Shown here: piece by piece, positions 2,620 through 4,523 of the stretch
How the letters are laid out: every line of letters starts with the position of its first letter
How positions within the stretch are numbered: position 1 is the stretch's first letter
NCBI GenBank assembly: GCA_016193065.1
Contig: JACPSX010000150.1
Span: forward strand, 1 to 7,488
Origin: Candidatus Tectimicrobiota bacterium
GTDB taxonomy: Bacteria > JACPSX01
Direction: 5' to 3'
DNA length: 7,488 bases
Program-made: the position numbers and the translations under genes
The notes under the pieces: model-generated
Told to the model about the DNA's origin: nothing
Databases searched by the model: none
What the model saw: the letters and a program-made list of their open reading frames with translations, nothing else

Positions 2620-4074
2620 ATGGAACGGGACGCAGAACGGATCCTCGTAGTGGACGACGAGGAGAGCTTGCGCTGGGTCCTCAAACGAGGCCTGGAAAAA
2701 AAGGAGTGCGCGGTGGACCTGGCCGCCAGTGCCGAGGAAGCCGTGGCCCTTCTGGAACAGCACGCCTACGCCATGGCCTTCGTGGATATCCGGATGCCGG
2801 GGATGGATGGCCTGCAACTGCTCGACCAAGTGAGGGGCCGCTTTGCGGATCTGCTGGTGGTGATCATGACCGCCCAAAACACGATGGAAAATGCCGTGGC
2901 CGCCATGAAAAAGGGGGCCTTCGACTACCTGGTCAAGCCTTTCGACCTCGATGAAGTCTACCTCCTCCTGGAGAAGATGCGGGAAATCACCGCCCTGCGG
3001 GGACAACTGGCCTCTGTCACCCGCGAACTCCGGGAAAAAAGCGGGATCGGCCAGATCGTCGGGAAGAGTTCCGCCATGCAGGAGGTCTTCAAGCTCATCG
3101 GCAAGGTCGCTGAAAGCGATGTGACGGTCCTCATCACCGGGGAGAGCGGCACCGGCAAGGAGATCATCACCCGGGCCATCCATTACAACAGCCGCCGGAT
3201 CGGCCGCCCGTTCGTGGTGGTGAACTGCGCGGCGATCCCCTCGGGACTTCTAGAAAGCGAGCTCTTCGGCCACGAAAAGGGGGCCTTCACGGGGGCCACG
3301 GCCATGAAAGAGGGCAAGTTTGAGAGGGCCCACGGAGGCACCCTCTTTTTAGACGAAGTGGCCGAAATGGACCGGGACTTGCAAGCCAAATTTCTGCGGG
3401 TCCTGCAGGAGAAAGAGTTCGAGCGGGTGGGGGGAAAGGAAACCATCCGGGTCGACGTGCGGATCATCGCCGCCACCAGCAGAGACCTGGAGGCCGAATG
3501 CCGGCAGGGCAGATTCCGGGAGGATCTCTACTACCGCTTGAAGGTGCTCCCGATCCATCTTCCGCCGCTGCGGGAGCGCCGCGAAGATATCCCCCTGCTG
3601 GTGGACTACTTTCTGAGCCGCTTTGCGGAGGAATCGGGCACCGGCATGAAACTCATGTCCCCGCAGGCCATGTCCTTGCTCGAATCCCACCACTGGCTGG
3701 GAAACGTGCGGGAACTGGAAAACGTGGTCAAGAGGGCTGCCCTGCTGACGACGAGCTCCACGATCCTCCCCGAGCATCTCCCCGACCTCCTGGGCAGTTC
3801 CGGCACGAGGGGCGGGACAGGCCCATTCCCCTCGCTGGAGGATCTTCTGGAGAGCCGCCTGGCCGAGTTCGTGGGGGAGATGTGCTCGAACAAGAAGGGG
3901 GATCTCTATTCTGTGCTCCTGCGCCGCTTCGAGAGGCCCCTGCTCCGGCTCGTTCTCCGGGAGACCCAGGGCAACCAGATGCGGGCCGCGCAGGTCCTCG
4001 GAATCAACCGGAACACGTTGCGCAAGAAGATCCTGGAGTTGGGTCTTAACCCTAAAGGAGGAACCGAACCATGA
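2620..4074 (+). CDS. ntrC: NtrC-type sigma-54-dependent response regulator
   Basis: This is an activator of sigma-54 RNA polymerase, 484 residues, full length for NtrC. The receiver domain (about 1-120) has the acidic pair D12/D13, phospho-acceptor Asp56 in [11 protein letters not shown], Thr84 and Lys106. The AAA+ domain (about 145-385) has Walker A GESGTGKE (174-181), the sigma-54 contact loop GAFTGA (221-226), Walker [10 protein letters not shown] (239-247) and the downstream REDLYYRL segment (300-307). A linker (about 390-430) leads to a Fis-type helix-turn-helix (about 443-475) with [20 protein letters not shown], typical of true NtrC rather than of other sigma-54 activators. The longer reading frame begins at 2500 inside ntrB. 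I placed the start at the ATG at 2620, four bases after the ntrB stop, because AGAGGGA (2604-2610) precedes it by 9 bases and the receiver domain begins right after. It overlaps glmU by ATGA. Its targets are not visible here, since no -24/-12 promoter was found in the window. Confidence 0.92.
4055..4061 (+). promoter_or_regulatory. Strong ribosome binding site of glmU
   Basis: AAGGAGG lies 9 bases before the ATG at 4071, inside the end of ntrC. It matters because it fixes the glmU start ahead of the repeat-coded extension: between that ATG and the conserved nucleotide-binding loop there is no other in-frame ATG or GTG, and the only TTG falls inside the loop motif itself. Confidence 0.75.
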
Positions 4075-4523
4075 GCGGCCCCCTTCGACCGGGTACCCGG
4101 CTTCCGGGTGCAGGGCAGGCCCTTCGACCGGGTACCCGCACCCAAGGGGGTACCCGGGGTGCCGGACAGGCCCTCGCCATCGTTTTGGCCGCAGGCCAGG
4201 GCACCCGGATGAAATCCCGAAAGCCCAAGGTGCTCCACCCCCTGGCCGGAAAACCCATGCTGGAATACGTTCTGGAGGTCGCCGCCAAGGTTTCCTCGAA
4301 GGTTGTGGTAGTGGTCGGTCTGTGGGGTCCGCAAACGTGGAGTGGGTCGTGCAGGAAAAGCAACTTGGCACGGCCCATGCGACACTGCAGGCCAGACCCT
4401 TCTTCGAGGGTCACCGGGGTCCGGTCCTGGTGCTTTCCGGCGATGTTCCCCTTCTACAGGAGGAGACCGTGCGCCGCCTGTTGGAAGCCCACGAAGGCAG
4501 CCGGGCTGCCCTTTCCTTCCTGA
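4071..4523 (+). CDS. glmU: GlmU N-terminal fragment, with repeat-coded extension; frame broken near 4320
   Basis: This is the start of the bifunctional enzyme that acetylates glucosamine-1-phosphate and then joins it to UTP to make UDP-GlcNAc. Residues 1-33 are a Gly/Pro/Arg/Thr-rich extension (LRPGTR twice, GAGQAL twice) not expected in GlmU. The normal protein begins at [19 protein letters not shown] (34-52), the uridyltransferase nucleotide loop, followed by [12 protein letters not shown] with the conserved Lys53. GlmU homology ends at VVVVVG (residues 78-83, to 4319). Beyond it this frame reads unrelated sequence to a stop at 4523, while the GlmU frame continues in the next entry. The gene overlaps the ntrC stop by ATGA, so translation is probably coupled. 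If the lesion is real, this fragment alone holds only the nucleotide loop and cannot be active. GlmU is normally essential, so a sequencing or assembly error or a second copy elsewhere is likely. Confidence 0.8.
4077..4170 (+). repeat. GC-rich palindromic repeat inserted in frame at the glmU start
   Basis: The 19-mer cccttcgaccgggtacccg occurs exactly twice, at 4081-4099 and 4120-4138, 39 bases (13 codons) apart. The self-complementary octamer gggtaccc occurs three times (4091-4098, 4130-4137, 4148-4155), in the first two as part of cgggtacccg. Each unit closes with a similar tail, gtgcagggcagg (4108-4119) and gtgccggacagg (4159-4170), giving units of 39 and 51 bases, both multiples of three. 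The block keeps the reading frame open and encodes [13 protein letters not shown]-like peptides. Nothing like it was seen elsewhere in the window. It resembles in style the small palindromic elements known to sit in frame inside genes (as in Rickettsia), but membership in any family is not shown. Confidence 0.7.

Follow-up and report, generated by a model that had tools for sequence, protein, structure and literature searches.

The glmU extension of a Candidatus Tectimicrobiota genome consists of two copies of a dispersed, nested palindromic repeat

Introduction

In-frame palindromic DNA has so far been discussed mostly for Rickettsia and for tagged REPs. A glmU gene from Candidatus Tectimicrobiota, in which a block of palindromes separates the start codon from the enzyme portion, raises the question of where such a block comes from and how it could be accommodated in a protein. 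The gene lies on contig JACPSX010000150.1 (GCA_016193065.1; label C105), which we analyzed in its entirety as a window of 7,488 nucleotides. The contig is part of a fragmented assembly of 2.9 Mb (294 contigs, 86% complete), the sole member of its phylum in our genome set.

Results

The block spans positions 4081–4170 on the plus strand (90 bp) and is built from two units of 39 and 51 bp with the formula CCCTTCGAC-X-GGACAGG, the first unit ending in GGGCAGG in place of GGACAGG. Perfect copies of a 19-bp repeat occupy 4081–4099 and 4120–4138, and the octamer palindrome GGGTACCC, expected 0.02 times per shuffled window, starts at 4091, 4130 and 4148; three copies were reached in none of 200 shuffles. 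The unit borders are best placed at 4081–4119 and 4120–4170. Unit 1 (13 codons) is a copy of an outer unit, A, bearing an inner hairpin, B, which here reads GGGTACCCGGCTTCCGGGTG (4091–4110, plus strand) and is predicted to fold as a single strand. In unit 2 (17 codons, plus strand), the A unit carries a B-type palindrome of larger size, in which two of the GGGTACCC octamers lie (4130–4157). The units, the direct repeat and the three palindromes had been described in a sequence-only reading of this DNA and are borne out here, with the block now confined to the above borders. An Rfam search of the window gave no match.

The block interrupts an otherwise conventional gene start. A Shine-Dalgarno-like sequence, AAAGGAGGA (4054–4062, plus strand), judged good on reading the sequence, precedes the native start ATGAGCGGCC (4071–4080, plus strand), which shares bases with the stop codon that ends the NtrC-type regulator gene upstream (ATGA). 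Excising exactly 4081–4170 joins 4071–4080 to the sequence from 4171 on (ATGAGCGGCC|CCCTCGCC) in frame and yields a normal GlmU start. The extension thus amounts to 30 extra amino acids at the GlmU N-terminus: 38 residues precede the LAAG motif in the window and eight would do so without the 90 bp, as compared to possible values of 2–13 in the GlmU proteins of relatives. Alignments to solved GlmU structures and to Pfam models set in only at about residue 30–36, and homology to GlmU begins only downstream of the block. Following a stop in its frame, the first codon that could serve as a start is the ATG at 4071; as no ATG, GTG or TTG lies in frame within the block, it is also the only start in frame upstream of the enzyme portion, in agreement with the earlier reading. 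Since the tail sits behind the only start codon, it would be translated whenever GlmU is made. Both units are free of stop codons in all six frames, so that translation would tolerate their insertion in any orientation or register, provided that the length is a multiple of three.

Translation and tolerance of the tail are nevertheless to be viewed in the light of a frame change near 4318 (4310–4330), which divides glmU between open reading frames 4071–4523 and 4322–5524; this break leaves the GlmU protein itself unproven. The 5' part of the gene (4071–4318, plus strand) encodes the extension and the beginning of the uridylyltransferase domain, and the remainder follows in another frame (4322–5524, plus strand). 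Compared with eight homologues, about nine residues (roughly 26–29 nt) are absent at the junction, which may stem from a faulty assembly or from a genuine lesion; the genome yielded no second GlmU of full length. A distant GlmU (L060) reads HPELVEGF at the corresponding stretch, resembling a peptide encoded by the A hairpin, and a lost or misassembled element near 4318 is therefore conceivable. Elsewhere in the window, a CBS-domain/hemolysin-like gene on the minus strand is split at 430–480 over open reading frames 431–1270 and 39–434, and its junction, too, seems to lack sequence.

The position of the block, 10 bp past the ATG in a glmU-glmS operon and with local hairpins predicted, might suggest that it has been recruited for regulation, a hairpin after the start tuning glmU translation, or that the tail has a function in the protein. 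The predicted fold energy is, however, ordinary for the base composition (RNA z = −0.91) and no better than that of shuffled sequences, and copies in other genes (see below) lie in different registers and at different positions. We consider such a role improbable.

The origin of the block became apparent from its copies elsewhere. Exact matches to the 19-mer number 17 in the 2.9-Mb genome; B, in the form GGGTACCCGNNTTNCGGGTG, has 52 exact matches, and 125 when up to two mismatches are allowed, as compared to none for a reversed-pattern control in the same genome; beside these 125 versus 0 stand counts of 128 versus 5 for CCGGGTACCCG. The copies are found in genes and between them, as the sequence-only reading had anticipated for an inserted element, and the complete absence of further copies, which it had named as speaking against one, did not occur. 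The GlmU extension is thus two copies of a short palindromic repeat dispersed in the genome. Among 385 other genomes, a single one contains B, in a single copy. A scan of 84,980 species, with the present genome set aside, gave no match to the combined A+B pattern, and neither the 19-mer nor the one form of B examined occurred in viral contigs.

These copies also bear on two simpler accounts of the block. The two units stand head to tail with 19 bp in common, and unit 2 could be a later-diverged duplicate of unit 1, as expected from local tandem expansion of a short glmU seed without a dispersed source, which the earlier reading had named as the simpler alternative. Yet the 39-bp unit is present at many unlinked loci, intergenic as well as genic, and unit 1 recurs in contigs C102, C60, C130, C163 and C291. 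Tandem expansion as the sole origin, to which we assign next to no probability, is refuted by the dispersed copies and explains at most the second unit. Alternatively, repeat-containing reads could have been stitched into glmU during assembly; the assembly is fragmented, several repeats lie at contig ends and the 7.5-kb contig contains two frame breaks. However, the block's junctions preserve the reading frame and give back a normal start, and at least 14 other genes also carry B in frame, a pattern that random chimeras would not give. We reject a chimera as the main cause on account of the dispersed in-frame copies, and regard it as very improbable.

The repeat is a composite. The outer unit A, CCCTTCGACNNNGCTCAGGACAGG, comprises 24 bp (eight codons). 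In aligned copies, B sits at the apices of a number of unrelated intergenic palindromes, and B-free versions of many of these exist as well; the hosts of B include the A hairpin (CCGTTCRCCCTTCGAC..AGGGCGAACGG), a second palindrome (TGGCCGCTCCCGG..CTCCCGGCAG), found in forms of 36–38, 47, 51 and 54 bp, and others. A direct count of 37 A hairpins gave 26 without B, almost all of 25–26 bp, and 11 with B, of 40 bp, so that about five loop bases are exchanged for 20 on going from the former to the latter. The element is therefore nested, with a lineage-specific hairpin B inside a unit A that is shared across phyla (see below). Full-length A elements, about 150 bp long and located between genes, are present in contigs C145, C162, C131 and C179; they have TIR-like ends (GGATGCTGAAAAA..TTTTTCAGCATCC) and are MITE-like.

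Based on a codon model trained on the genome, 14 of 88 B sites are in frame within one gene, involving 11 genes. At ten more sites the flanks are coding-like on one strand with differing phases; all ten are gene starts, gene ends or lie between genes, and none represents a single gene broken by B. Altogether, at least 15 protein genes, named by Pfam or by solved homologues, carry the element in frame: those for GlmU, TrmD, RNase R, AtpG, Mfd, GlnE, TamB, FliK, FliO, PsiE and GcvPB, and for hydantoinase-B-like, DUF3352, DUF2232 and PhoD-like proteins. In the hydantoinase-B-like protein, PsiE, FliO, FliK and TamB, the matched domain does not include the element. In alignments to PDB homologues, gaps coincide with the element in TrmD (13 residues), Mfd (eight residues), and RNase R and AtpG (a few residues each), and GcvPB contains two copies, one before the first homologous residue and one at the last. 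Cases recognized only by eye include a transaldolase-like C-terminus and DUF721-like, DUF3108-like and glutaredoxin-like proteins. The encoded peptides, GTRLPGA, HPQGGYP, RVPG and PGTR, derive from both strands and from at least four registers, which argues against selection for a conserved peptide. In the DUF3352 protein (C120, L257), B is accompanied by a 15-bp tandem array encoding ADTRKADTRKADTRKAGTR, an in-frame expansion of a B fragment. In-frame A and B units make up nearly all of the FliO linker (C35, 10.2–10.9 kb, minus strand; L256).

Unit A without B was found as the 24-bp form in at least 117 stretches, and among the matches listed are Nitrospirota, Chloroflexota, Bacteroidota, Pseudomonadota, Patescibacteria, Binatota, Planctomycetota and others. 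At 42 of 84 sites it is enclosed by an open frame of 180 amino acids or more, by itself weak evidence in GC-rich DNA. Pfam domains span or adjoin A in genes for a GspE-type ATPase, GlyS, RuvC, HemF, UvrD and a histidine kinase, and in RimO A lies between two domains. In a Gallionella UvrD, the A peptide is an exact eight-residue insertion relative to Escherichia coli UvrD; the gap at A in HemF is larger, at 15 residues. Peptides encoded by A in other phyla include PFDxAQDR, STxLRTG, LRxxSGQA and PVLSxVEG. The A sequence variants and the peptide PFDFAQ for which we searched were absent from the texts of the open PMC library, which does not prove A to be undescribed.

Discussion

Based on these results, we suggest that a short palindromic repeat, dispersed in the genome, very probably made its way into the 5' end of glmU, where the 90-bp block represents a dimer of it. 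Retention of the block would be explained by a length divisible by three, by the lack of stop codons in its units and by an N-terminus that tolerates a Gly/Pro/Arg-rich tail. Copies of the repeat probably act as selfish or neutral DNA that is filtered by the reading frame.

As to how the element moves, B may spread by being copied into the apices of palindromes already in place, through hairpin-templated repair or through template switching, a route to which we give almost an even chance. We favor such copying over ordinary transposition because loop bases are replaced, lengths vary and target duplications are not evident. A Y1/RAYT transposase acting in trans, as in a true REP system, is a serious possibility, if well short of an even one. 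The genome (86% complete, as noted) indeed encodes one REP-associated-transposase-like protein, on contig C67 and scoring 62.7 bits against a cut-off of 80, and contains an IS200 fragment; neither, however, is adjoined by A or B, no unpaired GTAG or CGTC end tag common to the flanks of the 88 B copies was visible by eye, and the exchange of loop bases for B shows no evident duplication. More speculatively, and with more doubt than conviction, A could be an undescribed protein-coding palindromic element of many phyla that enters core genes (UvrD, RuvC, HemF, GlyS, RimO, GspE-type ATPases) in frame; in the lineage of the window, it might have been colonized by the second hairpin, B, which then spread across the proteome independently, copying itself into the apices of hairpins.

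With at least 15 named genes affected here, several of them housekeeping genes, and with internal sites available in states with and without B, the insertion step becomes readable. Since A is common to many phyla, its spread and its tolerance by proteins are testable in culturable hosts.

Several known systems invite comparison. PARCELs are palindromic DNA encoding protein repeats across distant taxa, in the form of amphipathic 25-residue domains that stand in tandem within proteins lacking an assigned function (PMC2996958), whereas single insertions in core enzymes are seen here. The intergenic full-length A copies of about 150 bp resemble MITEs in their TIR-like ends, which the genic units lack. 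Rickettsia palindromic elements (RPEs; Ogata et al.), as characterized in PMC10969869, are about 150 bp long and encode a conserved peptide. By that account, both are dispersed palindromes that lie in frame in many unrelated genes, N-termini included; the likeness is one of behavior. Unlike RPEs as portrayed there, the coding units measure 39–90 bp (A alone 24 bp), use several registers and both strands, occur in another lineage, and specify diverse short peptides in place of a conserved one. The sequence-only reading had considered an in-frame palindromic element beyond Rickettsia noteworthy; its presence is confirmed in this genome, although GTAG/CGTC-tagged REPs were already known to lie in frame within ORFs of several species (Di Nocera 2013, PMC3733652). 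The present repeat shares with these REPs a 20–40-bp palindrome, present here as a stem-loop at high copy number, as well as the formation of dimers, in-frame location in ORFs and lodging inside other palindromes (PMC3733652). It differs in that no tag and no REPtron were found and in that A is common to many phyla. The element is the same kind of phenomenon as RPEs and intragenic REPs, and represents a variant of it rather than a new category.
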